From Polytrichum commune (taxonomy: Eukaryota > Streptophyta > Polytrichopsida > Polytrichales > Polytrichaceae): a stretch of DNA of 64,000 nt. A program made the translations under genes and the position numbers. The stretch lies in the NCBI GenBank assembly GCA_950295325.1, contig OX485804.1, positions 21,328,001 through 21,392,000 of the forward strand. Direction: 5' to 3'. Positions 1 to 45,073 of this stretch are shown here, piece after piece (positions within the stretch are counted from its first letter, which is position 1; each line of letters opens with the position of its first letter). The notes under the pieces were generated by a model. That model searched no databases. It was given only the letters and a program-made list of their open reading frames with translations, and had not been told where the DNA came from.

Positions 1-402
1 GCATTGTCATATTAGCCAACATGTTTAATATTCCGCAGTCGTCCAATGTCCTCCAATGTTTAATAGTCCACGGGTGTTCACCCATGGAGTGTAGGCACAA
101 TCCTTTTGTCTTCCTTGATGGGATCCTCCATATTACAATTGATTGTTTGCCCGGTTTCATTGGAACACTTGGTTTGTGGTCCCTAAAACCTCTACGGGTA
201 TTCTCTCGTACAAAAAAAGCAATCATTGCGTTCCCATCACGTTCCCCACATTAAAATGAGCGGACCATTTGTCTCATTTTAGTTAATATCCCCATATTCC
301 TTTTTCTTTTCTTTTTAGTAACTTAAAATGTTGGAGAGAATGGACATGGGCTTAAGTTAGCAGCTATTGGCACCTTAATTTCATTTTGAACCCTAATTTC
401 AA
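1..402. other. Intergenic, no supported feature
   Basis: AT-rich sequence with short T and A runs. No frame with convincing codon structure, no RNA gene and no repeat end were found before the hAT-like element that starts at 403. Confidence 0.5.
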
Positions 403-813
403 CACGGGTAGATCACTCCTTGTCAAATTGAACACCACGTGCGGACAAAGTTTGCTACCCCTATATTACATGCCATATATAATTTTAAAATTTATGATTT
501 TTTTTTCTACATATACATAACCATTGATAGTAACTTTTGAATAGTTTTCTGAAATTTTTAGTCATCTTTATTTTTTTTAGTAATTTTTTTAGTTCAATTC
601 TGTGTCATTCTAGTTAGAAACGGTATGTTTTATGAAAAAAACAAATCATCAAATTTCGTTATCATTTTTAAGTATGTCATAGGTACTGTGTATATCTACT
701 CATGAAAAAAAATTGATAAAATTTTGACCCATTTTGGTGGTGCAACTTACCAAAAGAAGATTTTTTTTGGTCGCACGTGATGTTCAACTTGACTATGGAG
801 TGATCTACCCGTG
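403..813. mobile_element. hAT-like non-autonomous element (MITE)
   Basis: The ends are inverted repeats beginning CACGGGTAGATCACTCC (17 bp perfect), and similarity continues to about 50 bp inwards. The element is flanked by a perfect 8-bp direct repeat AATTTCAA at 395-402 and 814-821. An 8-bp target duplication is typical of the hAT superfamily. The 411-bp length and AT-rich interior without a coding frame make it a non-autonomous element. It could instead belong to another superfamily with 8-bp duplications, since the terminus is CACGGG rather than the usual hAT CAGGG. Confidence 0.85.
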
Positions 814-1533
814 AATTTCAATTACATTTGGAAATGTGGTATACTTAGATAATGACATATTCTGAAAATACAAGACACTATATTAACCAATTTGACTAGA
901 ATGTAGTTCGAGAATAAAATGCATAATAATCAAACAATTATTGAACACATTATTATTTGGTTATGAAAAAGCAATTTACTTATTGATAGAATCATTTAGA
1001 AGGCACATTGTGATCAATAGTTTTGACTCACCACAACCTTGGTGGGCAGCTCTTGTACATGTACCTCTATTCGATAAAAATTCTGTTTTTAAAATGTCAT
1101 TATGTATCAATGTGTTTCACTAAATTGTGTTTGGAAGCCCACAATGGACCATGCCTGTGTGAGGAATAAGTGCTTTGTTTTCCACTTGAGTAGGTACTAC
1201 ACTAAATATGATATTTAGTGTCACCAATTCAAATTGTCTTGCGCAGTACCAATTGTAAGCCACAGTGTAGTGTCACCAACACGAAATGTTAACCCAACAT
1301 TGTTTGTCATTCCTTTAAAAAAAAATTGGGTGATTACAGATTTACAGTGTTGCCATTACTGCCACTTACCAAGTGGTTTTTCATCCAAATTTCAATCATC
1401 CGTGATAATGCTTCATCACAAGTTGTTGACATTAGAAGGTAGGATTTTTGCCAATGGATGAAGTCATCCATCATCCATGACAATATTTGTTCACTTATTC
1501 ATAAGAAGTGTCATTGGAAACGTTACCATATGA
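814..1533. other. Intergenic with a small palindrome
   Basis: No coding frame is supported. A short palindrome with 11-bp arms (ACACTAAATAT and its complement) around one base lies at 1199-1221. The motif ACACTAAATA recurs in the window near 30,213 and 35,964, so this is probably a piece of a dispersed repeat. Confidence 0.4.
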
Positions 1534-2653
1534 CACTAATGCCCCCTCCCCACCTGACTTCAACGAAGCCTAAAAGTTGGTTCTAAAAACACGGCCTCCA
1601 CACCATTGACATTATCTAGTGCCAAGCCTAGTTGGCAAATGATGTGGCATGGCTTAAAAGTGGAGGTTTTAAGCCCCAAGCACCGACTCTCCCATCAGTA
1701 CCTAGACATGAGGCAAGAATATAGGACTCTTAAAAGTGTCGCCTCCCGCCCTTGTGATTGGTTGCTTTTAGTCTTAGTTATGAGGGCACGAGGAGCTCCA
1801 TTAACAAAAAACCGATGATAAGATAGATGAGTAGTAAGGGATTTGGGGATGGGACCTAAACTATCCAACATTCATTACTTGGTAGATAAAACTATGAACA
1901 AGTTTGAAAGCTACTTAACTAACACCTACTTGAAAATCTCCAGAGCAAGTTCTTGTAGGTGCATTGGGATAGCTAGATGCCTCCCCTATAACTGAGGGAG
2001 CTTTATCCTGGTTTCAGGAGAGACTTTGATTATTTGGCAAAGTCAGGTGGGGAGGCATAATGCCCCCTCCCCACCTAACTTTACCAAATAACCAAAGTCT
2101 CTCCTGAAACCCGGGTATGATATTTATGCCCCCTCCCCACTTGACTTTAGCTAAGACTAAAAGATGGCTCGAACAACCCGGCCTTCACATCATCGACATT
2201 ATGTAGTGCCAAGCCTAGTTGGCAAATGATGTGGCATGGCTTAAAAGTGGAGGTTTTAAGCCTCAAGCACCGACCCTCCCATTGGTACCTAAACATGAGG
2301 CAAGAATATAGGAGCTTTAAAAGTGTCACCTCCCGCCCTTGTGATTGGTTGCTTTTTAGTCTTAGCTATGAGGGCACGAGGAGCTTCATTAACAAAAACC
2401 GATGGTAAGATAGGTGAGTAGTAAGGCATTTGGAGATGGGACAAAAACTACCCAACATTCATTGCTTGGTAGATAGAGCAATGAACATGTGTGAAAGCTA
2501 CTTAACTAACACCTACTTGAAAATCTCCGGAGCAAGTTCTTGTAGGTGCATTGGGATAGCCGGATGCCTCTGTTATTACCGAGGGAGCTTTACCCAATTT
2601 TTAGGAAATACTTTTGGTCTTAGCTAAAGTCAGGTGGGAAGGGGGCATTAGTG
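1534..2653. mobile_element. Composite CACTA-like non-autonomous elements
   Basis: The outer ends are inverted repeats: CACTAATGCCCCCTCCC at 1534 and its complement ending GGGGGCATTAGTG at 2653. The CACTA terminus is characteristic of the CACTA/EnSpm superfamily, and the flanks TGA and TAA are a near-match to a 3-bp duplication. Inside are two directly repeated copies of one body of about 520 bp (about 1534-2059 and 2126-2653). They are separated by a short inverted piece at 2060-2115 that repeats the right end of copy one. A third copy, inverted, forms the element at 40,778-42,100. The short frames here are shared between copies but have no coding character. Confidence 0.7.
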
Positions 2654-2945
2654 TAATATCTCCTCAGAGGTACATTCGAAGGTTGCATTGCATTCTACTC
2701 GAGTCATTAAACTATTCTAGAGGAATGCATCTTCTCTGATGTTTGACCATTATCAACTAGAACACAACCAAAATGGACACAAAGATGAGCTAAAGACTTA
2801 CGTATAATTAAGTGGACGTGATTGAACAATGCAGAGACTAATTTCAGTTTTTCCAAAAAATACTCAAACCTGTTGATTACATCATTGTTTCACTACGAGT
2901 GCTCTAGTCCACAACCTCTTGAGGATTCTGTTTGACATAGGTGAG

Positions 2946-5900
2946 AAGACAACTTTCCTTTTGATAAGTGGAAACTGGATGGTATGTCCAGGAAGAGGTC
3001 CAGGAGGAGGACTGGGCCAAAGAAGGTTCCAGGTGATGCAACATCTAGCAAGGCAACCTTCGCGACATGGGTGAAAGATGAAAGAAGTATGACTGATATC
3101 ACAAGACTCAATAAGCACATTAGTAGTGGTAGTTTGCAAGCGCTTTCACAGCTCAAAATAATCAACTAAGGGCATAGGGCAACTAGGAATTGACATTGAA
3201 GACAAGGCAAGAAGATGGAGGCATCAAGATATACGCACACCATCGTTTTTAGCTTCTCCTGCACATTGACTGCACAACTTGTCCATGCTTAAGCTTACAC
3301 ATATTAAAATCCTTGTTGGAAAATCAGACTTCCCCAAAGTACATTTGCATCCTGATTTGTCTGGTAAGCAAGATTGCAATGGCGATTGAGGCAGTTTGTT
3401 TTGAAGCAGAGATGCCTTAGTCTATTTTTCTGGCTTGATAGGGGCTCGAAAGCTAACTTAGTAATCTGTATTAGGGATGTATCACAAGCGAGGGTTGGTT
3501 GCATTAGCATTATTACCACTATTGGCATAATACACCACCTCACTCTCGCTGGTCCTTACAATCTCTAATGCAGACTAGTCAACCAAAGTCTTGCTTCAAC
3601 TCTAGCATACAATTGTCCATACATTCTTCATCAATCTCCACCAATATACAACCACCAGTACACTAGAGTCGTCTAGCCCATGAACCTCACAGACTAACAA
3701 CTGATAATGGTTTCTCACAATAAACTCCGTCACGACCACTGGGAGACTTGTAGCTTGCTCCATGTATGTTGTCGTCCAACCAAGAGCCGGACAGAATGGA
3801 GCATGCTTCAAGTTCTACACTTGTAAAAACTTGGAGAAAAGAAACTTACAAGAAAATCAGGCCAACCAACCCACACATCTATCGACACAGCAAGATGCCA
3901 ACGTTTAAACAGTAGACTAGAGTTGCACAAAATAGAGCATTGTTGCGTGACCACTGATTAAACTGAAGAGGCTTGCAATGGAGTTAAAGTCATTAACCAG
4001 CAGTAAACATCTCCATCGCAAGCAGAAGCTTATATCTATAATCCAACTGAAACCACATGAAGGAAATAAATTAGAGAGGCGAAAGGCCAGGGCGAAAGGC
4101 CATGAAGCACTCGAAATGTGAGCTTGGCATCGTCGAAAGAGCGTGACTCGGCAGCCTGTTGAGCTCTAGAGGAAACAGACAAGAACCTTATGCAGCACCC
4201 AAAATGCTATATCTTTATCATCACTTGCCATCTTCTTTCCCTGCTTATCCATTCTTGAAGCCACAGCCAAGATTGGTAGGTGGGGCAAGAAGTGGCAAGT
4301 GATGGTAAAGAAAGAGCAAGAGACAATCCTCTCAACTTGATGAGCTCGAATTGTGATAGAGGAAGACGTTGAGGAGTGGGAGTGAGGAGCACACTTAAGT
4401 AGGTCAAGAAGGGGGAGAAGAGGGAAATCACACGCTTCTGCCACTGCTACATGTGTCATTCGTTGCATATTCAACCAATTTCATTCTAATTTCTGAAGAA
4501 AAATGATAATTCAGTTAGGTGGTTGTGAGTCATAAGTTAGGTCTCGTCATACAAATTCAATAAAATCCATGGCTTCCGAGGCTAAGTGCCGAGAATTTGT
4601 GGTGGGTTATCGGATCACTGAGGTGGAGTTGAAGACCGAGTACATTCCTCAATAAGGAAAGAATAGTAAAAAACAAATATCAACTTGGGTAAAACTCATT
4701 AGAGCATTGGTGTGGTGGAAAGGAGCTTAAGTCTAGATTGATTACTTGTTCTTTACTCTTCAATGATGTATCAATTCACCACTTTGTTTCCCTACTTGAC
4801 GAATCAATCAAATGAACTCAACATTTCTACACCTCTTTCTAGGGCGGCTGCTTAGGAGCTCCCTTTGGCAGCACAATAGTGGAAATTGATAGTCATCCGT
4901 GGCCGTGAGACGCCCTTGAGGGCCCCGCCTCCCCTCCAAGTGGGTAGGTTGTTCATTGTTTAATTCTGTCTTGGCGTTGCCGATTGGCTTTCCGTCTTAT
5001 ATAAATAACAAATAACAAATAACAAATACATTGAAGGTCGTCGTCATATGGTGACACTCCCTTTTAGATGGTTGTTGAGGCTTAGCAGAATTTTAATTTT
5101 GAAGATTGCTAAGTTAACCTCATAAGCAAGTTGACCATATCAAGCGAGTTGCAGTATTTAATCTATTTCACAGTTCATCACTTCAACAGAAGCATGCTTG
5201 GTTTTGGGGGGTGGTAAATCCCTGGGTAATGGATGTCACTTCCCTAATAACAGTTCAACCTCTACAGCCTAGTATCAAAACAAATTGATAGAGGGAGGTT
5301 GTGATAAAAAGATGTGAATTCCTCTATAAAGCATCCCTGTATTTGTAAGGAAATCATACTGGACTGCCATGGCCATTGCGAAGCAAGGTGTACCAAAGCT
5401 ATTCCCTTCAATCAAGGAGAACCCTTTCCATTCATGATTTGTATGGGCTTTGTGCGCTCACCTGCGAATCTTTTGAGTGTGGAGTTACTTATTCACCCAT
5501 TGCAACGAAGATAAGGTGTGCAGATATCACAATATTATAGGTCTCAGCGAAAGTACATATTTACAATGGTCCTGAAGGATGTCATTGCAAAATATCTTGA
5601 TACGTAAGAGCCCAGTTTATATCCACCACGTTCATGCATGCAAAAAAGTTCTGCAACTGAACAGGCTCGCCATCCACGACAACTTCACCATGTTATATGC
5701 ATTCATCTGTTCAGAGATACTGCAGGTCGCGATTGCTCTTTCCTTGTCCACAATCTTTGATTATTTACTAAGTTCCAAAAATGGGCATTTGTTTGTAACA
5801 GGAGATTGCCAAGATGATGAATTTGGGTTCCTTGAGTGGTTGTTTACGATGAGACTGTACATCAGACCATTCTTGCGAAGTACCGATTAGAAGGAAATTC

Positions 5901-6152
5901 TGGTACCGCAATTCCTCTGCACCTGAATCTCCCAAGCAACCCTATCTCTTACGTTTCTCCAAGTAACTGACACTATTGATGCCCTCTCAAAACATATCAA
6001 AGCTTGCAGGCAGTCAATTCCAAGTCTTTTAAATGTCTAAGTCACAGATCCACGTTCACCAACAATTGAGGATTGAGTACCTGCCAGCTTGGGAGAGAGC
6101 ACACCTTTCTGCCTGGCTTCTGAAGAATTTCTGGAGGTTTCAGCCAAAGTGA
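2946..6152 (+). CDS. Candidate multi-exon gene, function unknown
   Basis: Several open exon-like stretches with GT-AG borders lie in series; the model is partial. Exon 2946-3128 is basic (SRKRSRRRTGPKK) and joins in phase to a stretch from 3187. An overlapping alternative exon 3253-3363 contains a Cys cluster (DCTTCPC) and a GTAAGC donor. 3442-3493 encodes NLVICIRDVSQA. The best run is 5350-5515, then 5541-5603 (RKYIFTMVLKDVIAKYLD, donor GTAAG), then a stretch from 5649 or 5664 into 5802-5890. Exon 6048-6152 ends the frame with WLLKNFWRFQPK and TGA. The first two of the 5.3-5.6 kb exons join in phase. The next intron would be only 45 or 60 nt depending on the acceptor, which is short for plants. 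The alternation of strand-like segments recalls OB-fold proteins, but that is a guess. Transcription and full extent are unproven. Confidence 0.4.
4840..5030 (+). repeat. Possible retroelement 3' end with AACAAAT tail
   Basis: A locally GC-rich stretch (about 4840-4960) is followed by an AT-rich stretch that ends in a short tandem repeat of AACAAAT units near 5004-5027. A unique 3' end with a simple-repeat tail is the form of a non-LTR retroelement. I could not find a convincing flanking duplication, so the assignment is weak. It lies in a probable intron or upstream part of the 2946-6152 gene model. Confidence 0.25.
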
Positions 6153-7698
6153 GCATGGCAGGGGGCACAAACTTGGGAAAATGATGAATGTATGCTGAAA
6201 CTCATTGGTCAAATGGTTTTATATATTTCTAAAGTACCTCTGATGAAAACATTGAAGTGGAAATCTGTTTGATTTCTGAATGTGGAAGACTCATATTCAT
6301 ATTCTCAAGCTACCTATTCAGATATATTGCTGAACAATGGGTATAATAGCTCTCTTGTGAATTACAAACCCGTACAAATAGTGCACGGTTTGCAACTCAG
6401 TTGAGTGTTGTACAGTTTGGCTCATGGATGTCTGTAACCTTGCAAGTGTTCCCTGCCATCGTTCCACAAGTGCTTGTAATGTTAAAACTTTGTCCAAGAA
6501 TGGGCCCACCTCTTAGTTTGCAGATGCAATTGACTTGTCACCTGTTATGGGAGTTGTGCTCAACTGCAATCAAATCAATCAATCAATGAAATCTCAGTCT
6601 CTTTGCACACTTCAAACTGAGGAACCATATGAATTTACATATTCCAATCACGTTTGAATGCATGTTCTTCTGACATGCATTCGTTATACTCAAGCCCTCC
6701 CCACTCCGTGAACAACTTTAATTTAAGCTCAGTAACAATCAGACAACTCTGAAAGGATGCATGTACCTGCTCAGTGAAGCCTATTCATGCATTTCTATCA
6801 TGGAGCTCGTTCATTACCTTCATCAAATGAGTATACATTTTCTGGACAACCAATCTAAGTGATGACTCCCATGATTTCATCGATTCAAAAGCCACTAAGA
6901 TATTTCTGCTTCTCAGAAGCTCACAAAATCCTGAAGCCTTGAAAGATCTTGGACATGTATGTAGGGTACTCTAAGTTCCACCGAATGTTCCCTAGTACAG
7001 CCTCATCTGTGCTGCAGAGTTCATGAGCAATTTCACACTACAAGGGTGAAAAAACTGCTTCTTATGCCTTAAAATGATTCTAAGGGAGGTAAAACTATAG
7101 TTGACAGGCTTAAGGTGCTTGACCATCATCACTGAAAGCTGGTTACATAAGACAAGAAAGCGACTATTCCTGTAAACTACATTGAATCTTTGACAAAAGC
7201 ATAAGATGGGTACAGCATAAGATGGGAAAAGATTTATGCCCTCCAAACCTTTCATCCATAAATCCCAACAAAATAACAATACAAATTTGAGAACTCCTTG
7301 CAGCAACACTATCTTGCATGTACAAAAACTCGAAGTGAGATCACAAAAGAAGTTCTGTTTATTTCAAGTGGGATTCAAAATAGTCCGACAAACAGGATCC
7401 ATTCAGTTTCATTGAACGGTTAGATACTCCACCACTACTCAGCCTAAGAGACACAATATAAGACGTAGTGAGGATTTCTTCGAGCCTAAATTCAGATCAA
7501 GCAGATATTCCACATTCTATGTGATGATTTCGGCAAGCGCATTAGTTGCAAAAGATAGCTCGGAGGAAGTAGACAGAGGACGCAAGAAGAGAGAACTTTC
7601 TGGCCAAGCCACCTCAGTAAAAGGCATTTGAAGCCATTACAGAAATATGAAGAACGAAACATGTACTTGACTATGGTGGCGGAGTAGAGGTTTGGCCT
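6153..7698. other. Intergenic, nothing supported
   Basis: The longest frames here are about 100 codons, overlap one another in several frames and lack splice-border support. No repeat ends or RNA genes were recognised. It may hold the 3' untranslated region of the upstream plus-strand candidate gene. Confidence 0.4.
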
Positions 7699-13946: not shown

Positions 13947-14836
13947 TTCTATCATTCAATAGTGCACCCTTGAATCTGCACATAAATAACACTATATTCA
14001 GTATTTGGAGACTTTTTGTTGATTATGAGACTATATAAGGATGCACATTTCAAAATTGGACCAGTAATGACGACTAAAAATCCCATATGTATAATGGTAT
14101 GCTACTATTATTATACATAAAGGCATGGAAGTGAACAAAAATGTGAGGCATACATGAAAATAGTTGCGTATGAAATGACAACTCGTTATGAATGGAAGGG
14201 AAGATGCGAAGAATGAATGGAAGTTGAATGAATTAATTGGGATTGAAATACAATTATAATGGAAATACCATCAATGTCTTGAGTAACTTGGAATAGCATA
14301 GAAAGTAAGCACTTAAATATGTTCTACACCTAAGCCCATTTAGGGAGTCCGTCCCACTAGTACGCTTCTAGTCACACTAGTCCGACCCACTATTTTTTTT
14401 TGCGGCTAAGTCCTTTTTTTTGGCGGCCTCCATGGCTCTAAAAATCTCAGGCCCACGACTGTATCCTTGTGTGTTGCCTGGACAGGAATATGTCTCGTTC
14501 TTGCATGTTTCAGGACGCGCTCCCGAATTGTACGAGGTGGTATTATAAGTACAATACGAGGGCGTTTGCGAAAGGGAACGTCTTGCGCTTCTCCGGAGGG
14601 CCAGACAACGATCGGACTCGGAAGATGCGGCCTTGAGGGCGTGCCTATCCAAGGAGGACGTGGAGGAGGGCCGGGCACCAAGCGAGCGGGTAGCCACCTG
14701 CGAAACAACGTCATAGGAAGATAAGAATAGGAATGGAGTGGGGAGAATAATGAGGGCGGTTTGGGATGGGCGCTCGTAAAGAGAACGGCACGCAAACGGA
14801 AGACAAGGGAAGCAAAAGCGGGAAAGGGTTTAGGGT

Positions 14837-15349
14837 TTAGGAGGGCACCTTGGCTTTGGGGACGTCCATGCGGGGAACGGTGGGAACGAGGGGGGCGTCG
14901 ACGGGAGCATCCGGAGCCGATGGAACTATTGTATTGGTGAGTGGCGGGGGGGAGTCGAGGCGTGGAGGGCTCACGATGGCGGAGGACGTTGCGGGGGGAG
15001 GAACGGAGTCGGCGGGGGAGGTGTGGCAACGGGGGCCTTCCATGCGAAGACGCCGGCTCGGCCCGCGACGAGCGACGGTGTCGTCCTTAGAGGGCGAGAG
15101 GTGCCCCAAACGAACGAGTGTCCGTTTCTCCTTGGAGAGGGGGGAGGGAGACGGGGCGTAGGCGCGGGCGACAAGTGCGGGGGGCGGGCTGTTGACGACG
15201 CCGTCGTCGATGCCGACGTCGCGGGAGTAATCCACGGCCGAGGCCGCGTCGACCGCCGAGAACTGGTAGAGGGATGGCATTTGGAAGTCCGTGACGTCGC
15301 GGGAAGGGGAGGCAGGTGGCGAGAGGGGACGGGAAGGGCCGTCGACCAC
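14837..15349 (-). CDS. Ser/Pro-rich frame inside the 6.8-kb element
   Basis: A 170-residue open frame on the minus strand lies downstream of the FCP1-like exon. It is rich in Pro, Ser and Ala, and its nucleotide composition is strongly GC-rich. No domain is recognisable. Overlapping frames on both strands are also open here because of the GC content, so coding is uncertain. It could be a disordered exon of the same minus-strand transcription unit or simply a GC-rich captured fragment. A short CAA-type repeat lies just upstream at about 15,378-15,415. Confidence 0.3.
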   Translation of the reverse strand: MVDGPSRPLSPPASPSRDVTDFQMPSLYQFSAVDAASAVDYSRDVGIDDGVVNSPPPALVARAYAPSPSPLSKEKRTLVRLGHLSPSKDDTVARRGPSRRLRMEGPRCHTSPADSVPPPATSSAIVSPPRLDSPPPLTNTIVPSAPDAPVDAPLVPTVPRMDVPKAKVPS

Positions 15350-15485
15350 AGGGGCGTCGCATATGGGGGCAGACTATGGTCAACAACAATCACAACAACA
15401 ATCACAACAACAAAAGACATCCAAAAATGAAGCAAGCATTAGTAAATGTGAACCACATGATACAAAGCAAAGACATGGAGGCATT

Positions 15486-16253
15486 TCAAATCAATTTATT
15501 GAGTTTGGCGAGCCTCATGATGCTCTTGAATACATTATCACGGGGGCTTAAACCCACATTGCCTATGGGGTTGGACCTAACAAAAAATGGTATGCTACCG
15601 GCGTGGACAACAAGCCTTCTAAGGTAAGGCGCTAGCGTATCGACCAAAAACGTGTCGTTCCTATCGCCGGTCCAAGTGGCGGGGAAGATGACGTTCCCCG
15701 AGGGGTTCAAGACGCTTTTGGTGGGGCTGTCGTCGACGAGGACGGTGTTCTCGGGGGTCGGCCACCACCCGTGGGGTACCCCCTGCAACCGGGGGATGCC
15801 CCGCCACAGTCTTGACCTCAGGACCTTGAGGAATTGTTGTCCTCCGCCACGACCGCCGAACTTTGGAACCGGCAGACCCTTTTCGTCGAGCAATTCATCG
15901 CAATCCTCTTGGCCGAGGATGAGGCAAGGGCTCGGAAGATCGCGGAAGAGGAAGTCGACGATTGGCTTGGTGTTCTCCATGACCATGGAGCTCCACACAA
16001 TGACGTGAGCTACATCGAGCACCTCTCGAAGGAAGTCACGCAGGCCGGGACGGGCGCGGACAGCCTTGCGGTTAATGAGAGTGTCGAGCTCTCCGTCATA
16101 GTCCCTTTCGTCGGGGTGACGGAAGGGACGCGTGGGTACCCGGGGGATGTGTTCGGTGTGACACAACACCCTGTTCAGGTCGAACACGACGAACGGTTTG
16201 TTTCGGGTAAGACGTCCACTGGTCGAGGGTTTCCGACCTATCTCCGGGGGATC
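15486..16253 (-). CDS. FCP1/NIF-like phosphatase-domain protein
   Basis: The exon starts after an acceptor (AATCACAG) at 16253 and runs 255 codons to a stop at 15486. It has the FCP1-homology (HAD-fold) layout: KPFVVFDLNRVLCHT near residues 19-33, RPGLRDFLREV, VIVWSSM (strand with Ser), then ENTVLVDDSPTKSVLNPSGN. The family's phospho-acceptor motif is DxDxT. Here it reads DLNRV, so the first Asp is kept, the second is Asn and Thr is absent. The conserved DDSP motif is present. Many plant FCP1-like proteins have a similar DxN variant, and catalysis is doubtful. The C-terminal RSNPIG segment suggests the domain is complete at its end. There is no start codon in this exon, so an upstream exon is needed. 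It lies inside the 6.8-kb element. Confidence 0.7.
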   Translation of the reverse strand, partial: DPPEIGRKPSTSGRLTRNKPFVVFDLNRVLCHTEHIPRVPTRPFRHPDERDYDGELDTLINRKAVRARPGLRDFLREVLDVAHVIVWSSMVMENTKPIVDFLFRDLPSPCLILGQEDCDELLDEKGLPVPKFGGRGGGQQFLKVLRSRLWRGIPRLQGVPHGWWPTPENTVLVDDSPTKSVLNPSGNVIFPATWTGDRNDTFLVDTLAPYLRRLVVHAGSIPFFVRSNPIGNVGLSPRDNVFKSIMRLAKLNKLI

Positions 16254-16369
16254 CTGTGATTAACAACTCGACTAGTTTAATTCTATGATCCAATAAACAA
16301 CATTGCATTGAGGAAAAGACGATTATGCGAGGAAAATAGTGCAAGGAGAATGTGGTCAAGTGCAGACTT

Positions 16370-16467
16370 GCGAACGAGCGTTCGTGAATGAAGGCTGGGG
16401 TGGCGCATCATTTACGAACGCTCGTTCGTGAGCGCGGATAGAAGCACATGTACGAACGCTCGTTCGT
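16370..16467. repeat. Cluster of three 16-bp palindromes
   Basis: Copies of the palindromic motif ACGAACGNKCGTTCGT occur at 16370-16385 (first base G), 16414-16429 and 16452-16467. They lie in non-coding sequence between the FCP1-like exon and the acidic exon. Further single copies are at 16791, 16897, 17285, 18325 and 18425. I find no copy outside the 6.8-kb element. Confidence 0.9.
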
Positions 16468-16790
16468 GAAGGAGGGTGAAAGTGGGCGTGAAAGTGTAAT
16501 GATGCGCATGAACATACATAATACAAGATGCGATACGATACAATAAGTTTGGGAGATGCGACGCAGAGATCATCTGCTGATATATTAATTCCGTGAATAT
16601 TTACAATTTGTCTCACGTGATAATTTTTCACAGTTTCCTATGGCAAATACATGCCGTGTTCTACAAAATTTATCAGGCTAAGGGTCAAAATTTATCGGGC
16701 TAAGGGTCCACGTAGAGAAGGGTCCTCGCACGCCTCGTGATGCTGATGGACAAGAACCGCCAAGAACACAACGCGCATGGGTTAGTGGTT

Positions 16791-16806
16791 ACGAACGCGC
16801 GTTCGT
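16791..16806. repeat. 16-bp palindrome, copy 4
   Basis: ACGAACGCGCGTTCGT, a perfect palindrome, about 25 nt downstream of the predicted minus-strand donor at 16,837 and therefore in the presumed intron. Confidence 0.9.
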
Positions 16807-16837
16807 TAAATGAGTGGTATTCTCAAAGGAGAGTTAC

Positions 16838-17176
16838 CTCATCATCGGGGGGAGGGGCAGCGGCGCTGGACCGAGCAGTTCCCTCCTCTTCGATTAACGA
16901 ACGCGCGTTCGTAATCCCCATTGGGCCAGCCGCCTCTGTCTCCATGGCGTCTGTGGCACGCTCCGACTGTGACGCCTGGGTCTGCACAATGTGGTCCGCG
17001 TCGTCGTCTCCGCCCAGGTCGAGAGTGTCCATGCGGACATCCTCCATCTCCGCGGATGGATGTCGTCCCAGGTCAGGGCTCTCAACGTCCATTCCTTGGA
17101 CAACTGCCGCGTCATTGGGGCTCCCCTGCGTTTCCTCCACAATGACCATGTCAGTGTGTTGCGCAAATTCATCGCC
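16838..17176 (-). CDS. Acidic exon inside the 6.8-kb element
   Basis: On the minus strand, 113 codons lie between an acceptor (GTAG at 17177-17180) and a donor (GAG followed by GTAACT at 16832-16837). The product is acidic, with MDTLDLGGDDDAD and repeated Asp/Glu, and ends SSAAAPPPDDE. A 16-bp palindrome at 16897-16912 lies within the frame and is read as TNARS. The segment looks like a disordered linker of a larger protein. Its place between the coiled-coil frame and the FCP1-like exon suggests one spliced unit, which is unproven. Confidence 0.45.
16897..16912. repeat. 16-bp palindrome, copy 5
   Basis: ACGAACGCGCGTTCGT within the acidic exon, where it is read in frame as T-N-A-R-S on the minus strand. 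Confidence 0.9.
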
Positions 17177-17956
17177 CTACCTATGCACTACCCTCGGGAC
17201 GACTGTCAAAGAGGCGATGGCAGTGACTGAGGCCAGTCCTACCCTTGGAGGGGGAGGGGTTAGGACTGCCGGACCTGAAGATTCATGAACGCGCGTTCGT
17301 AAATCTTCGTCCTCGCGTATGGCAGCCCTTATCGCATCGTCCAAGTTGAAGGGGGTGGTAGTTAATTGAAGGGGCGGAGGACTCCCAGCTGGCGTTGGGT
17401 GTGGTGCTGATGGGTGCGAAGGTCCTCCAGGGAACAGGCCTGGAGGGGGGGTATGGGAGGGGTATCCTCCGGGGAAGGGGTAAGGCTGTTGTGCTGGCGC
17501 CGAGAAGCTCTGCATATTTCTGAGCATCTCAAATATGGCGTCCGTCTTTGCTGCGGACTCCCGCAGCGCCTCCTGCATGCGGGCCATATTTCTTGCACTC
17601 TCCTCTGCCGCAGCCGCCATTTCTTCCTTCATTTTTTGCTCTAGCTTGGCATTCAGCTCGGCAACGGTCAACGCCTCCTCCTTCACACGCTTGTTCTTGT
17701 CGTAATCCACCCCTAGCTCCGCCATGATGTCCATGTCCCCCTCGTCCTCGTCGGACACCTCGATGATTGCTCCCTCCGGCAATTCCACGTATGGCGTCTT
17801 CTTCATCCTCCTCCTCGTGTTCCGGAAGTGGTCCAATGATGGATGCGAGCGTTGGTCGAGGAGGTTGAGGGTCTCCATCCTCGGAACCACGACGGGCCTG
17901 GGAGACACTGACGTCGAACAGCCGCCAGGTGTGCCGAAGGGTTCCGCACCCGACAC
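17177..17956 (-). CDS. Coiled-coil and Pro-rich frame inside the 6.8-kb element
   Basis: A 259-codon minus-strand frame. It begins with a segment containing RRRMKKTPYVELPEGAIIEV and an acidic EDEGDMD run. Next comes a likely coiled coil at about residues 85-150 (repeated Ala, Glu, Lys, Met heptads, e.g. AKLEQKMKEEMAAAAEESA), then a Pro-rich stretch with PPPGLFPGGPSHPS. Its end (FNLDDAIRAAIREDEDL) runs into palindrome copy 6. The true 3' border is probably a donor near 17,240, giving a short intron to the acidic exon. No enzyme domain is visible; it looks like an oligomerisation or linker segment. Confidence 0.5.
   Translation of the reverse strand: MSGAEPFGTPGGCSTSVSPRPVVVPRMETLNLLDQRSHPSLDHFRNTRRRMKKTPYVELPEGAIIEVSDEDEGDMDIMAELGVDYDKNKRVKEEALTVAELNAKLEQKMKEEMAAAAEESARNMARMQEALRESAAKTDAIFEMLRNMQSFSAPAQQPYPFPGGYPSHTPPPGLFPGGPSHPSAPHPTPAGSPPPLQLTTTPFNLDDAIRAAIREDEDLRTRVHESSGPAVLTPPPPRVGLASVTAIASLTVVPRVVHR
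17285..17300. repeat. 16-bp palindrome, copy 6 (diverged)
   Basis: ATGAACGCGCGTTCGT, one end changed from the ACGAAC consensus. Confidence 0.85.
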
Positions 17957-17995
17957 TCTAGCGGGGAGGACATCCTGGGTTGTCCCAGCTGAGGA

Positions 17996-18352
17996 TCATG
18001 TATAGCCCCCCGGTGTCCCTTGGGGGTCAGAAGGGTGACCCGCTGGCGCTAACATCCGTAAAGGAGTGATGTTGAACGACTGCAAGATGGCGTCCACGTC
18101 CACGTCCACGGAGGGGGCGGGCTCGTCCTCGTCTGTCTCCAATCCCAGCATGCCTTCGTCGACGGGCATGCTGAAGTCCTCCCTGGGGACACACATGTCA
18201 TCGAGGTCCATTGTGGACGCTTTCACCCTGTGGACCTGGTATTCATCCTCGTCTTGGGCGTCAATGTAGTTATTGACGACCAACCCCAGCATTTGTACCA
18301 ACGTTTCCAAACATGTCAGCATATACGAACGTGCGTTCGTAAACATCAACAT
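17996..18352 (-). CDS. Acidic frame following the methyltransferase-like exon
   Basis: A minus-strand frame of 118 codons. The part after palindrome copy 7 reads LTCLETLVQMLGLVVNNYI and then an acidic tail (VDEGMLGLETDEDEPAPSVD). It follows the methyltransferase-like exon by about 140 bp and probably continues that protein. A canonical AG acceptor in front of LTCLETL is not obvious. The intervening stretch carries a palindrome near each end. The frame's own ATG lies just before the palindrome, so an independent start cannot be excluded. Confidence 0.4.
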   Translation of the reverse strand: MLMFTNARSYMLTCLETLVQMLGLVVNNYIDAQDEDEYQVHRVKASTMDLDDMCVPREDFSMPVDEGMLGLETDEDEPAPSVDVDVDAILQSFNITPLRMLAPAGHPSDPQGTPGGYT

Positions 18353-18440
18353 TGAGACAAGGCCATATCAACGCAAAGGGAAAAAAATGCCACAACTATT
18401 ATAACATTTGAATCAATGAAAAATACGAACGAGCGTTTGT
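18325..18440. repeat. Palindrome copies 7 and 8 bracketing an intron-like gap
   Basis: Copy 7 (ACGAACGTGCGTTCGT) is at 18325-18340 and copy 8 (ACGAACGAGCGTTTGT) at 18425-18440. Both lie in the gap between the methyltransferase-like exon, which ends in a GTAAGC donor at 18457-18462, and the next acidic frame. Confidence 0.9.
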
Positions 18441-18462
18441 AAATCGAAGAATGACAGCTTAC

Positions 18463-19449
18463 CATGGCCGCGTACATGAACTTACTGCCTCCAAAGATGT
18501 TGTATACAGTCTCTCCAGTGATTGCCAAGCTCTGCAACACTGACACGTAGAACTCCAACCTGAGCTCCAACGCGGGGAAAACCGTGTACAGTGTCTCCTG
18601 CAACAGTTCCTTGGGAGGGGGGTGAGGGATGCTGTATATCTTCTTGAAAGTACTGTTTGCCTTCACAGGCGCTCTCCCATTTCTGAGAGCATTGTACATT
18701 AAGAAGATCAAGCTGACAGTTCCCACTTGCTTGTTGCCCCTGGCCTCGTTGATGGCCACGATCCCTTCCGTTTTTGCGGGCACGTAGGTGCTGTGGTAGA
18801 TGTTGTATTCAAATTTGATGGTATTTTCGTACAGCTCCGTGACAATGGATAGCTTCTCCTTTTCCACTATCCAAAGCCATACGTGAGGCTCCCTCATTTC
18901 AGGCGATCTGTAGTCTTGAAACTTTGCCATGAAAGGGTTGTAGAAGGGAAAATCCTTTGTCCCTTGCCTCGCACCTCCTGGGATCCCCCTGAAATCAATC
19001 AGGGCAAATGGGCAACCCCTGCAGTCCTCCCTCACCTCGGCCCTGCTGATGGTGCCGTCCCACTTAGAAAAAGTGGTCCTCTCCAGCCCGGTGGTTACCA
19101 AACAAAATATGGCCACTCCCTCGAATGTGGCCCTCCGCTTCCTCTCCAAAAACTTTATATACAACTCCACCTCCTGGGGATCTGTCTCTGCTTTCTTGGT
19201 CCGCTTGTTCCCCTTCAGCTTCAAGACGGAGGCGTGTTCCTTAACTAGCCTACGCATGGAAGAGCCATTGATGTTATACCCGACCTTGAACTCCTTCCAT
19301 CCAGCCCAGTTGATGTCCCCGTCGGCCTGGAAGAGTTTGTACTCCGGGACTAGTGCGCCCAACTCCCTCATTGAGTTGGTCTTCAACTTGCGATGTTCGC
19401 ACCACTCCTTGATGGAGTACGTTCCGGGCCTGTGCTTTGGCCTCTTCAA
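18463..19449 (-). CDS. Methyltransferase-like protein in the 6.8-kb element
   Basis: A minus-strand exon of 329 codons starts at ATG (19449) and ends at a clean donor (ATG then GTAAGC). Residues 1-30 are basic (MKRPKHRPGTYSIKEW). The middle has CPFALIDFRGIPGG and then WLWIVEKEKLSIVTELYE. The end has SLAITGETVYNIFGGSKFMYAAM. The latter resembles motif I (F-x-G-S-G-x) of DNA amino-methyltransferases, and the order of a DPPW-like position before motif I is that of the beta class. The catalytic DPPW/Y is not intact (DFRG) and GSG reads GSK. It may be a divergent or inactive methylase fold, or unrelated. Read-through past the donor gives an implausible hydrophobic tail. It lies divergent to the 290-residue plus-strand gene only 83 bp away. 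Confidence 0.45.
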
Positions 19450-19532
19450 AAAAATCTTCGGGTAGGGGATTGTTCTCCCGACGGTGTTCCCAACAATTCT
19501 GATTCTTTATAAGGGATGATGGTCTCCCGGCC

Positions 19533-20405
19533 ATGCAATTTAAGCTTTTGTGCACATCTCCTAATTGGGGCCCGGATGATGGTATACTCGTATGGCGTCA
19601 AGACAATGATGGGAAATGTTTGCTCCCGGATGGGGATCCAAAGCCTTGTAAACCCGACCCCATGAGGAATGGGCCGGAAATCATCAAAGGCATATCCGGA
19701 TTCATTGAATATTGGAAAGAGTTGTGTGAGGAGGACATCACTAGACGTGTTAGAGATACTCATGAACCTTTGATTGCGTATTGGGATCGCATTCGCTTGG
19801 CCCTAATGACACTTGGTGGCGACACCCGTACAACTTTAACACAAGGATTTTGGCCACAAAGCCGTTTAATGGTTGTCGAGTCCGACACCATGTTTTTTAG
19901 CAATGGAGACGTTCGTGAAGAGTTCGCAATGGACGAGCATTACGTTGGCCCTGTCCGAGATCGACCGGCACCGTTGTTTCGTGTAGGTGTTGATTGCCAT
20001 GAAGGTTATTTGGTCCTCGTACGAGCAGGGGATGAGGAGCATCCCAAGCCAATTTGGTTGGTGAAAGCATTGTCTTCACCCAATTTTGTTCGAATTAGCC
20101 CCAACTTTTGTCAAATTGAGGTGGAATATTGTCGTCCAAGCACTAAAGACCAAAACGTGCTACGCACTTATTTAGGTTGGGACACCAAAAAGAATTTTAA
20201 ATGGACAGTGGACTCAGCGTACACACCGGTTTGGATAAACACGGATATTATACTTTGTGCTTGGAAGCCGCGCAAAGGTTCCAAAACAGAAACAATGACC
20301 ATCCCCCAAAAACATATAGATTTTGCCAAAGACAACTTGACACGTATTGCAGCTGCGGTGAATGACGCCGAGAATGGATATGAAGCGGAAGATGGAGATG
20401 TGTAA
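19533..20405 (+). CDS. 290-residue protein in the 6.8-kb element
   Basis: A plus-strand frame from ATG at 19533 to TAA at 20403-20405. Residues about 1-90 are charged (GFIEYWKELCEEDITRR). A central part has QGFWPQSRLMVVESD. The C-terminal third reads YLVLVRAGDEEHPKPIWLVKALS, then FCQIEVEYCRPSTK, TYLGWD and INTDIILCAWKPR. That series of beta-rich segments is like the chromo/BAH-like tails of transposon-associated proteins in lower plants (recalled pattern, not searched). It is the element's only sizeable plus-strand gene and ends about 400 bp before the right terminus. It could be the C-terminal exon of a longer protein. A transposase catalytic core is not visible. Minus-strand frames over the same bases are shadows. 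Confidence 0.55.
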   Translation: MQFKLLCTSPNWGPDDGILVWRQDNDGKCLLPDGDPKPCKPDPMRNGPEIIKGISGFIEYWKELCEEDITRRVRDTHEPLIAYWDRIRLALMTLGGDTRTTLTQGFWPQSRLMVVESDTMFFSNGDVREEFAMDEHYVGPVRDRPAPLFRVGVDCHEGYLVLVRAGDEEHPKPIWLVKALSSPNFVRISPNFCQIEVEYCRPSTKDQNVLRTYLGWDTKKNFKWTVDSAYTPVWINTDIILCAWKPRKGSKTETMTIPQKHIDFAKDNLTRIAAAVNDAENGYEAEDGDV

Positions 20406-20811
20406 ACATAACATATTAGGTGGGAGTTAATGGCGAAAAACATGGGCGCTTAGTAGACTTGGTTTTTATTAGACTTAGTGGACTTGTCACACTCCATTGT
20501 TGTATACGTTTGGGATGTGCCATCCAAATTCATAAGAGCCTTACTTATGGGATGCGCACCCCAAACTCTATAATGACATAAACCAATTGTTTTTTTAGAG
20601 TTGATTGTTATTTTCCACAAAGAGCTCACGTTTTCATTTTAATTGAAATTCTCTATTTTTAGTAATAAGAATATGCTTTATGTGCAAAATTTTAAATCGT
20701 CATGTTCTTGATGTTCCCAATATTCCGTATGCCCACAATATTGGCATCCCAAACCATGGGCATATTTTATTTTGAGACTTTCAAAAGTCTCCGATTAACG
20801 AATATAGTGTT

Positions 20812-22098
20812 AAATGTAGAAAATTCAATTTGGGGGCACTTGTAATGACTGGCTGCAAAATCTACATTATTATTTCTCAAAATTTCTTAAAATTATTTTG
20901 ATTGAAAATAGTTTGCATTTGAAGACCTCCAACCTAGGGTTACATTAGCCTTTAAACCATGATACCAATTTGTAAGCCATATAGATAGGTGTGACAAACC
21001 CAATGGCATGGGCCAAAGCAAGGAGAATTGGGCGAGGATGGGGTTAGACATGTAGGGGGCGTAAGGTGTTTGAATTAAAAAGGGGGGGAAAGAGAGGAAA
21101 AGAAAGAAGGGTGAAAATACAGTAAAGCGGAGCTCTTGATCCTTGCACAAGTTTAAGCGAAAGTGATTCAAAACTAGACACTAACTTTGAATTTTGTGAA
21201 TTTTTATTTTACGAAAATTTTAAAAAGTATTATTGATATAGGAAGCCAAGTAATTTATGTTGACCAAAACAATCTTCAAAAATTCAACAAATTTCAGAAG
21301 ATAGTGTAGGTGATGTGCAAGTGCTGATATTGAACAAGTGTCAAAATTTTGTTTAAAATACAATGAAATTTTTTGTACTAATTATTTTCTATAAAATAAA
21401 TTTTGATCATGACCTCAAATTTATAATGACTTATAGGAATGAGAAAATGAAAATCAAGTCCAAAATACTTAAGTTCATAAAATTTACATTTAAACCAAAT
21501 CTAGCCATTTGATGTTGAGCAACACTACTTTTGATGATAAATTTTGTAGATCTCATCTTGGTATTTTAAATTTGAGTACTTATAACAACAATAAAGATCA
21601 TAATTATGAAAAATATTCAATGTAAAGAAAACGTTTTTACTATTTTTAGGTGTCAGACCACCAACAACTATGGTTTTACAATATTGAACAATTTTTTTGG
21701 TCTACTTTAACATGGTTGCACCTAGAAAAGATAAGAAACACCCTTATGGATCCTTCTTGATTTTAAATCATTTTGTAGGAGCGCTATGGCAAGGACGGGA
21801 TGGGTCCAAGCTGGTCAATATGTATTGGAAATATTAATAAAATTTTAACATAGAAACCTCTTATTGTTAAAAAAATTATAATTCAGTTACATCCAACAAG
21901 TGAGAAATATTCAACACATTCAATAATTTATAAAAGATAGATCTTCATAAAACCACTTATCAAATTTTGATCATAAAGTAGATATGTCACATGTCACCTA
22001 TTACCATAATATTGATCAAGAGAGATGATTTCATTTGCAACCCCATTTGTAACCCTTCCTAAACTTCTCATTTGGCCTAAAACATTCTTGTGGAACAA
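20812..22098. other. Repeat DNA of block A, no gene
   Basis: Collinear with block B 43,471-44,750 and AT-rich. The first 950 bp belong to a diverged repeat present four times in the window (about 20,830-21,760, 30,500-30,960, 43,480-44,480 and 53,350-53,790), recognisable by shared phrases such as GATGTGCAAGTG and CTCATCTTGGTATT. Confidence 0.6.
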
Positions 22099-22437
22099 CT
22101 CGGGGGGGGGGGGTAGTCATTGGTTGGAGTAGCAATATACATGCGAACAAATGATAGGGTATTTTAAAAACATGGGGGCACAGAATTATAAATGGACTTA
22201 AGAGTAATATAGGGTATCAAAAATGGCACTGGACATCTTTAAAGTACTATAGGGTATGGAATAATAAGTAATTTGGAATTATAAGTAATGCAAACCATTT
22301 TTCTATTAACCCAAAGTAGAAAATTACATAATGATGGCATGTGAAAAAAAGAAGAGAATTGAAAGTAATACCCCCCTATAAAATAGTGGTTGTTCGCACC
22401 TATATCCTTAACTTTTTAACACACTGACCCCCCCGAG
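22099..22437. mobile_element. hAT-like MITE, family CTCGGGGGG
   Basis: Starts CTCGGGGGGG and ends CCCCCCCGAG. Flanked by a perfect 8-bp direct repeat TGGAACAA at 22091-22098 and 22438-22445. Block B has the empty site (TGGAACAG then TGGGGG, 44,743-44,756). A longer member with the same terminal bases is at 39,051-39,840. The 339-bp interior has no gene. The poly-G run next to the end is 11-12 bases. Confidence 0.85.
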
Positions 22438-43064: not shown

Positions 43065-45073
43065 TAACTTGTTGGTTGGAAATTCTGCCAAGGCTTGATG
43101 GATGGATTGAAAATGGGTGGGTAATAACCCAAAGGGAACTATAAAAAAGAAAATGAAATTTAGTAAGGAAGTGTATTTTCTTCACATGGCAAAAAGATAT
43201 AATTGCAGAACATTTGAGTATCTCCTTGACTCCACAATTTTTATTTTTATTTATTAAGCATATTATATCTTCTTAAATGTCAGACATATCAATTCATAAT
43301 ATTATTCAGGTCCATAATAGTGTTATGTAGGACTGACAATATTACATGGAATATTCGCCATATATTCCCCATTGTATGTGGGGAATATTGTCAGTCCCAT
43401 AGAACATTTTTATGGATATGTATACTATTATGTTCCATCATTCAACAATGCACCCTTGAATCTACACATAAATGTAGAAAGTTCAATTTGGGGGCACTTG
43501 TAATGAGTTATTGGTTGCAAAATCTTCATTTTTATTTCTCAAAATTTCTTAAATTTATTTTGATTGAAAATAGTTTGCATTTGAAAGACCTCCAACCTAG
43601 GGTTACATTAGCTTTTAAAACTTGATACCAATTCGTAAGTCATATGGATAGGTGTGACAAACCAGATGGCATGGGCCAAAGCAAGGAGAATTGGGCAAGG
43701 ATGGGGTTCGACATGTAGGGGGCGTAAGGTGTTTGAATTAGAGAGGGGGGAAGTCAGAGGAAAAGAAAAGAAGTGTGAAAGTACAGTAAAGTGGAGTTCT
43801 TGATCCTCACACAACTTTTAAGTGAAAGTGATTCAAAACTATATACTAACTTTGAATTTTCTGAAGAAAAAAAGTTTATGAGATGTTAAAAAAATATTAT
43901 CGATATAAAAATCTAAGCAATTTATGCTGACCAAAAAAATCTCCAAAAAGTCTACATTTTTCATAAGATGTTGCACGTGATATGCAAGTGCTGATATTGA
44001 ACGAGTAATTGTCAAAAAAATTTAAAATACAATGAAAACAATTCTTTCCTAAATTTTTTTTTGATGATGACCTCAAATTTATTATGACTTCAAGGAATGA
44101 GAACATGAAAAACAAGTCCAAAATAGTTAAGTTCATAAAATTTACATCCAAACTAGATCTAGCCATTTGATGTTGAACAACACTACTTTTGATGATAAGT
44201 TCTGTAGATCTCATCTTGGTATTCTACATTTGAGTACTTAGAACAATAATAGAGATTATTGTGAAAAATATTCAATTTAAAGAACATATTTCTACTATTT
44301 TTAGGTGTCAAACCACATAAAAACTATGGTTTTACAATACGGGAGCATTTTTTTGGTCCACTTTAACATCCTTACACCTAGAAAAGATAAGAAACACCAG
44401 TATGGATCCTTCCTGATTCCAAATCGTTTTGTAAAAGCGCTAAGGCAAGGACAGGATGGGTTCAAGCTGGTCGATATGTTTTAGAAATATTATTAAAATC
44501 TGAACATAGAAACCTCTTATTGTTTAAAAATTATGATTCAGTTACATCCAACAAGTGACAAATGTTTAGCATATTCAATTTATAAAAGACAGATCTTCAT
44601 AAAACCACTTATCAAATTTTGATCATAAAGTAGATATGTCGCATGTCACCTATTACCATAATATTGATCAAGAGAGATGATTTCATTTGCAACCCCATTT
44701 GTGACCCTTCCTACATTTTTCATTTGGCCTAAAACATTCTTGTGGAACAGTGGGGGTAAACCTCTAAATGCTCAAGCCTTTACACTAGATTTTGAGGCAT
44801 TTCCAGCACCAATGCTGAACTTTTATGTTATGTAACATAATAGAATTCATTATCTTAAAACCCGATTGCATGGATGTGAACTAAAATACCATACATTCTT
44901 TTTAGTGAAAACTTCAAGTCAATCTAACCATATTTTCTATGTGAGAATGACATATGAACATGGTTTTCGTCTAGGGGCATCTACAAAAACTCTGAGTTTT
45001 TTTAATTCATGATCATTTTTGTTATGCCACAAGTTCTAGAGAGTTGGCAATTTTGCCATAATATGTTATTAAG
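43065..45073. other. Repeat DNA of block B
   Basis: Collinear with block A. It contains the empty sites for the 6.8-kb element (43,470-43,473) and for the 22,099 MITE (44,743-44,750). No gene is supported. Confidence 0.6.

Follow-up and report, generated by a model that had tools for sequence, protein, structure and literature searches.

A deletion derivative of a 16-kb multi-gene DNA transposon family with a presumed DUF7869 transposase in Polytrichum commune

Introduction

Some DNA transposons are known to carry additional genes directed against silencing, among them the Mutator-like VANDAL21 elements of Arabidopsis (PMC5735166) and a group of fungal elements (PMC12730594). VANDAL21 carries a helper gene, VANC, beside its transposase gene; VANC works via short family-specific tandem motifs in introns and upstream repeats, with a different motif in a related family (PMC5735166). 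The fungal KDZ, hAT7, ESTA and Plavaka transposons carry a TET/JBP enzyme gene thought to act on silencing (PMC12730594). Here we describe an element that likewise combines a presumed transposase gene with helper genes. It lies in a 64-kb stretch of the Polytrichum commune genome (C2:21328001-21392000, hereafter the window), and an initial annotation had read it as a 6.8-kb transposon with a phosphatase-like and a methyltransferase-like gene and no recognisable transposase.

Compared with VANDAL (PMC5735166), the elements described below have CpG-containing palindromes of 16-22 bp, target site duplications (TSDs) of 4 bp and no detectable Mutator profile. Unlike the TET/JBP transposons (PMC12730594), they show no TET/JBP profile in the scanned frames, their cargo being an FCP1-like gene and a gene with GQH and GGSK motifs, and their host being a plant; Zisupton elements have TSDs of 8 bp (PMC12730594). 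In our reading, to which we assign a probability of about 0.88, the element is a deletion derivative of a transposon of about 16 kb that encodes a presumed DDE/D transposase with the DUF7869 domain, a partner protein that may bind palindromes, and an FCP1-like protein. The literature searched contained neither the name DUF7869 nor anything joining FCP1 phosphatase, capture and DNA transposon; Repbase and Dfam lay outside this search, and the lineage may be named there.

Results

Structure of the element and its family

The element (13988-20811, plus strand) is 6.8 kb long. The sequence AACACTATATTC occurs without mismatches only twice in the window, at 13988-13999 (plus) and 20800-20811 (minus), and the inverted ends pair over 30 nt with 87% identity (left terminal inverted repeat 13988-14016, plus strand; right 20783-20811, minus strand). 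They are flanked by the TSD AAAT (13984-13987 and 20812-20815), and the paralogous block B retains the empty target site with a single AAAT at 43470-43473. When the flanks were joined in silico, one match ran across the junction (block B, 43382-43773; 89% identity over 393 columns with 5 gap openings). The inverted repeats and this match bear out the ends, flanking repeats, empty site and coordinates proposed initially; the 290-residue plus-strand frame and the long minus-strand frames reported there were also found open.

Comparison with its longer relatives assigns the element to a high-copy family of DNA transposons of about 16 kb, which we call fam1, and shows that it is defective through an internal deletion. 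A fam1 copy at C4:36939569-36956120 (loci L005 and L006) is 97.1% identical to it over element positions 1-5506 and 98.7% over positions 5504-6824. Both ends are present, and the two matched parts are separated by one large collinear gap of 9.7 kb, with CAA common to both sides of the junction (19491-19493). The single gap together with the CAA overlap points to an internal deletion, being its usual mark, and leaves the window copy without about 9.7 kb relative to L005/L006, that is, non-autonomous.

The remaining parts are arranged as follows, splice sites and exon borders here and below being predicted from sequence. The minus strand contains a Ser/Pro-rich frame, perhaps the C-terminal exon of the FCP1-like gene (14837-15373; 35% identical to its homologue in the related family fam2, E 1e-13), the FCP1-like frame itself (15486-16259), acidic frames that probably form the C-terminal part of the partner gene (16823-18367; fam2 homologue 27-31%), and a part of the partner protein with the FGGSK motif (18463-19491), followed by a donor-like site GTAAGC. 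Beyond the junction, the plus strand encodes the C-terminal third of the DUF7869 protein (19494-20405), the DUF7869 domain itself being deleted.

The genome searched comprises 408 Mb, with a plastid contig on which rbcL is intact, as in a photosynthetic eukaryote. The counts below are places scored out of a larger number of candidates, hence lower bounds. The left end of fam1 was scored at 40 of 430 candidate places, and for the right end 40 of 763 candidates were scored, with 41 matches. The FCP1-like frame was scored at 148 places (of 1,259 candidates) and the plus-strand C-terminal frame of the DUF7869 protein at 135 (of 1,529); 141 of the former and 107 of the latter are free of stops. Ninety-six of the 148 FCP1-like frames pair with the C-terminal frame within 60 kb in the correct order and orientation, 52 being unpaired. 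The spacing of matches, from which element lengths were deduced, implies 15-18 kb for 69 of the 96 pairs, the shortest pair being the window copy (6.8 kb), and the gene set was read directly in two full fam1 copies. Moreover, both ends were compared in 20 paired fam1 copies that lie in plus orientation, and 16 of these have a perfect 4-bp TSD (CCGG, TCAA, TAGT, ACAT, TTAT, TCAT, TAAT, ATAC, CACT, CTCT, ATGT, CAAG, AAGA, TCCA, ATCT and CAAC), with no visible target motif. The genome search suggested in the initial annotation therefore finds the ends and the genes recurring genome-wide and not as single loci. Its view that the genes were recently functional fits the family, the window copy itself being defective.

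Related families

The second family, fam2, is represented by one copy (C5:934623-951221; 16,599 bp, TSD TCAT) with the end sequence and gene order of fam1. Identity between fam1 and fam2 proteins is 64% for exon 2 of the DUF7869 protein, 44% for FCP1 and 35% for the Ser/Pro-rich frame. Of 40 fam2-type FCP1 frames among the matches listed, 15 pair within 25 kb with a DUF7869 match (74 such matches, picked from 150 scored).

The third family, fam3, also represented by one copy (C2:4153720-4178705; 24,986 bp, TSD TACC), has the ends ATGGGGATATTAACTAAAATGAG. Its FCP1 is 36% identical to that of fam1 and 31% to that of fam2; its GGNK exon is 21% identical to fam2 (E 1e-17) and its GQH exon 26% to fam1 (E 8e-9), these matches spanning 21-26% and E 1e-17 to 2e-8. 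There is an acidic frame as well, and in the copy analysed stops break the partner frames. For fam3 copy A no left end was found.

The gene order is the same in all three families: FCP1-like gene, acidic frame, (D)GQH/GG(S/N)K protein, intergenic stretch and DUF7869 protein, the last standing at the right of a full element, with the partner and the FCP1-like gene at the left on the opposite strand. In each of the families fuller copies have the DUF7869 domain together with inverted ends and 4-bp TSDs. On this comparison, the genes that seemed to have been captured belong to the regular gene set of a transposon lineage about which little is known. This is one of the alternatives offered initially, a lineage with these domains as normal cargo, and it is borne out by the 96 of 148 pairs and by the same gene order in two diverged families.

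Two loci, L080 (C6:41934001-41944000) and L081 (C2:52986001-52996000), belong to a fourth lineage of DUF7869 sequences, which is more diverged and has stops; L081 also contains a DGQH frame on the opposite strand. No ends were found for the L080 lineage.

DUF7869 protein

The deleted 9.7-kb part encodes the DUF7869 domain (Pfam PF25273, E 9.9e-40), and the E-values in fuller copies are 9.9e-40, 1.4e-43 and 2.4e-46. In the copy L009, the whole protein is a single open frame of 1049 residues, and the plus-strand frame of the window is 92% identical to its residues 736-1049; by this alignment the "290-residue protein" of the initial annotation is the C-terminal end of the DUF7869 protein. No transposase could be recognised in the window copy because the internal deletion took the DUF7869 domain, a statement that holds for this copy and not for the fuller ones, which encode the presumed transposase. 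Across the P. commune genome, the domain was scored at 150 places (of 1,490 candidates). None of 14 control genomes had a match, but those named are prokaryotes, so this has little bearing on eukaryotes.

The motifs (D/G)(K/G)MD, DNC and GHTH(D/E)D are kept in four lineages (fam1, fam2, fam3 and L080), and in 4 of the 4 lineages examined the last two acidic positions are 39 apart, with 38 residues between them. This set looks like a DDE/D triad of the form D...D-(38)-D/E. The DUF7869 protein is very probably the transposase of the lineage; a copy without its core, such as that in the window, could move only in trans. A profile search for a hidden DDE domain, proposed in the initial annotation, gave DUF7869 as the sole transposase-like Pfam match and no known transposase profile. 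Pfam lists the function of PF25273 as unknown; the same domain is tied here, unlike in the Pfam entry, to inverted ends and 4-bp duplications.

FCP1-like gene

The minus-strand frame of haloacid dehalogenase (HAD) phosphatase type, related to FCP1/SCP, matches the Pfam NIF profile with E 3e-16, which confirms the FCP1-like domain recognised initially. In the pairs tested, the ratio of nonsynonymous (dN) to synonymous (dS) divergence between subfamilies is 0.10-0.14. In particular, between the window frame and L074 and L075 of subfamily B dN is 0.05 and dS 0.41-0.49 (ratio 0.10-0.12, Nei-Gojobori method, NG86). These values show purifying selection on the FCP1-like frames between subfamilies for the pairs tested; the ratio against close copies, based on few changes, is 0.23-0.37.

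The catalytic motif of FCP1/SCP phosphatases is DxDx(T/V). Its positions in the window protein were placed by alignment to a small phosphatase acting on the C-terminal domain (CTD) of RNA polymerase II (Pol II). In all 16 element proteins compared (L068-L077, 10 of 10; L059, L005, L010, the window and two fam3 copies) Asn replaces the second catalytic Asp, so the motif is lost. The window protein reads DLNR (Arg for Gly), the other fam1 and fam2 copies examined DLNG and once DLNE (L071). Host NIF genes read DVNG (L060 and L061) or DVDG (L062); plant proteins of the DVNG type belong to the same Pfam family and share Asn at the second motif position, found in two of three host genes. With the second Asp lost, the FCP1-like protein probably does not work as a normal phosphatase; that it binds phosphorylated Pol II tails is a guess.

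Element FCP1s are 27-33% identical to the DVNG-type host genes (E 1e-16 to 1e-24) and 27-35% identical to host NIF genes overall. Among the NIF matches listed (150 scored of 965 candidates) about 8-9 are unlike the element frames, far more element copies than host genes having been scored. In a tree of fam1, fam2 and host NIF proteins one branch parts element from host sequences with 82/80 support, with a long-branch warning. Ultimately, the FCP1-like gene may descend from a NIF gene of a plant.

Partner protein

The large partner protein carries the (D)GQH and GG(S/N)K motifs. Identity between fam1 and fam2 is 42% in the DGQH exon and 37-38% in the GGSK exon, and the dN/dS ratio of the DGQH exon between L005 and L010 is 0.12. 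The FGGSK exon of the window had been called methyltransferase-like, and we, too, took FGGSK for a presumed, unproven methyltransferase motif. No methyltransferase profile of Pfam, NCBIfam or PHROGs reached the GGSK exon or its relatives (PHROGs gave nothing below E 0.04), sequence and profile searches of the PDB with the GGSK and DGQH exons found no related structure, and tblastn against phages returned 24 weak unrelated records for the GGSK exon, with E 0.6 among those listed, and no record for the DGQH exon.

In profile-profile comparison (hhalign) with two sets of phage methyltransferases, 81 rows each and one of them with a ParB_N domain, the best match of the partner is weak (8.2% probability, P 0.004), the controls with the DUF7869 protein and FCP1 giving 0.1-0.3%. 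It aligns FP...GETVYNIFGGSK with FP...VLDPFGGSG of the phage enzymes, the expected motif region, but drops to 3.3% once fam3 is added. IDFR stands at the candidate catalytic place in fam1 and fam2 and is not kept in fam3; it may be equated with a DPPY-type motif, and if a methyltransferase ancestry exists, the catalytic motif would be gone. The initial name of this exon therefore finds no profile support beyond a motif, and assignment to the DNA methyltransferases (N6/N4, beta class) is not supported, as the partner has neither a profile match nor a DPPY-type motif. Likewise, (D)GQH is a motif that may resemble that of the ParB/DGQHR superfamily; this reading, too, finds no profile support, since there is no Pfam or NCBIfam match, hhalign gives 0.1-2.0%, and just the motif is in common.

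Palindromes and CpG content

Each family has its own palindrome, counted here in one copy per family, with the motifs chosen from those same copies. The fam1 copy has 38 sites ACGAACGNNCGTTCGT (up to 2 mismatches), with none in fam2 or fam3; the fam2 copy has 39 sites GTTTGGGTCGATCGACCCAAAC (up to 4 mismatches), with none in fam1 or fam3; the fam3 copy has 21 sites CACGGGTGNNCACCCGTG (up to 3 mismatches), with one in fam1 and none in fam2. As a control, the bases in the left half of the fam1 element were shuffled singly, and none of 20 such sequences had a site; exact fam1 palindromes number 5,602 genome-wide against 4 for the reversed pattern. In the window element, eight of nine sites ACGAACGNNCGTTCGT (up to 2 mismatches) lie at 16370-18440, and the ninth, with two mismatches, at 15110.

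The palindromes of fam1 (at about 1.1, 2.4-2.9, 3.3, 4.3-4.4, 5.8-5.9, 7.3-7.9 and 11.3-12.9 kb) and fam2 (at 2.8-3.2, 4.4, 5.9-6.1, 7.5-8.3 and 11.5-12.8 kb) occupy corresponding places and are entirely different in sequence. Most of these sites lie close to exon borders predicted for the genes read leftward, or in the stretch separating the two divergent genes, and some lie in the acidic frame; that is, the family-specific arrays stand mainly outside coding parts (gene borders being predicted), as in the VANC system. The window element has an observed/expected CpG ratio of 0.93, against 0.40 for the remainder of the window; the values are 0.87-0.96 for the fam1 copy, 0.77 for fam2 and 0.60 for fam3.

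The arrays could instead be binding repeats of the transposase, as are the repeats bound by Spm TnpA, with no regulatory or anti-silencing role. The palindromes are dense and family-specific, and some fam3 sites lie near the ends (242 and 24761 of 24986). However, in the fam1 and fam2 copies examined the first sites stand 1.1 kb (fam1) and 2.8 kb (fam2) inside the left end, the rightmost 3.7-3.8 kb hold none, and most cluster near predicted exon borders and between the divergent genes, which makes this explanation unlikely, though it is the strongest of the competing ones.

At C1:640647-646096, outside the paired copies, fam1 palindromes are densely clustered, and many of them have a GG centre; this locus perhaps represents a further subfamily.

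Other features of the window

The window begins with the right end of a neighbouring fam3 DUF7869 element (1-295, plus strand), the other genes of which lie upstream; its presumed transposase frame (L056:6807-8882) lies 1.1 kb before the window start. Positions 22107-22434 match the interior of a fam3 copy (L057:4879-5211) with 91% identity, perhaps as another repeat inserted in both. Self-comparison also shows tandem direct repeats at 58927-59675, spaced about 95-97 bp apart.

Discussion

Alternative explanations

The elements could be unusual members of the CACTA/CMC group, e.g. Chapaev-like, with extra genes, as the initial annotation had suggested. The string CACTA is present inside the fam1 end (AACACTA), and Chapaev elements make 4-bp duplications. 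On the other hand, the ends of CACTA/EnSpm elements begin with CACTA and their TSDs are 2-3 bp long; the TSDs here are 4 bp, the ends AACACTATATTC do not start with CACTA (the termini are AACACT or ATGGGG), the fam3 ends lack it, and no Pfam transposase other than DUF7869 was found among the frames scanned. By both its ends and TSDs and its transposase domain the lineage falls outside CACTA/EnSpm, and we consider this assignment improbable.

Less probable still is a Pack-type element, the other initial suggestion, i.e. a non-autonomous element that recently captured pieces of host genes, FCP1 among them, between ordinary ends. The window copy, with GC-rich gene pieces and without the DUF7869 domain, has this appearance, and its FCP1-like gene resembles the DVNG-type NIF genes of the plant itself. 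But the same gene order is implied by the 69 pairs whose spacing fits 15-18 kb, was read in both full fam1 copies and recurs in two diverged families, and without fam3 the element and host proteins part at a single branch. With the genes family-wide and FCP1 under purifying selection between subfamilies, capture by the window element was rejected. An origin of the helper genes in a virus-like life style (a Maverick-like element or an endogenised DNA virus), which the size of 16-25 kb and the several genes might suggest, was dismissed as highly improbable, no polymerase, capsid or packaging gene being recognised in the frames scanned with Pfam, NCBIfam and PHROGs, which did not include the stretch between the divergent genes.

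Weighing the evidence

The preferred reading, a deletion derivative of a multi-gene DUF7869 transposon, is built on the observed anatomy, copy number, duplications, deletion and conservation, and on the selection acting on FCP1. Several observations weigh against it or parts of it. Three of the 20 sampled copies have no TSD (L019/L039, L023/L043 and L024/L044), and the left end of L029 is absent from the stretch fetched. Searches of solved structures (PDB) and known transposase profiles with the DUF7869 protein gave one unrelated chaperone-like chain (E 2), and AlphaFold models of two window proteins have a predicted local distance difference test (pLDDT) score of 30 and 35; the catalytic role therefore rests on motifs, position and conservation. 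No profile marks the partner as derived from ParB or a methyltransferase, and some palindromes lie inside the acidic frame. In one fam2 FCP1 pair dN is 0.016 and dS is 0. When fam3 is added to the tree, the element FCP1s form one group in just 22% of bootstrap trees, so the tree is compatible with a single capture as well as with repeated capture, a point that also favours the Pack-type explanation. Finally, the high CpG content fits escape from methylation, and equally youth and GC-rich coding.

Possible mechanism and significance

In the scheme that we propose, the DUF7869 protein would cut and paste the element DNA, and the partner protein would bind the palindromes private to its family, forming a transpososome-assembly or anti-silencing module, a rough analogue of VANC of the Arabidopsis VANDAL elements. 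The FCP1-like protein, with its altered active site, would act as a phospho-CTD-binding protein or an altered phosphatase favouring transcription of the element. We see about even chances that the partner reads the palindromes, and that its purpose is to counter silencing, by analogy with VANC, is rather doubtful. Somewhat less tentative, though short of even, is the wider proposal that DUF7869 provides the catalytic domain for a superfamily, so far undescribed, of giant DNA transposons of eukaryotes (16-25 kb) with an altered FCP1-like protein and a palindrome-recognising partner, in which partner and palindrome would be exchanged together between families in fixed places, and anti-silencing or self-recognition would have evolved independently of VANC.

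For genome annotation, the results carry a warning, as one transposon family accounts for at least 141 of the open frames that would pass as "NIF phosphatase" genes in the P. commune genome. DUF7869, a domain of unknown function, gains a probable job, that of a transposase. One transposon lineage has kept a phosphatase-like gene and a presumed DNA-recognition gene across three quite different families. Because the palindromes differ from family to family and yet occupy corresponding places, it can be tested directly whether the partner, as predicted, reads the palindrome; the outcome bears on whether transposons other than VANDAL have evolved a sequence-specific escape from silencing.

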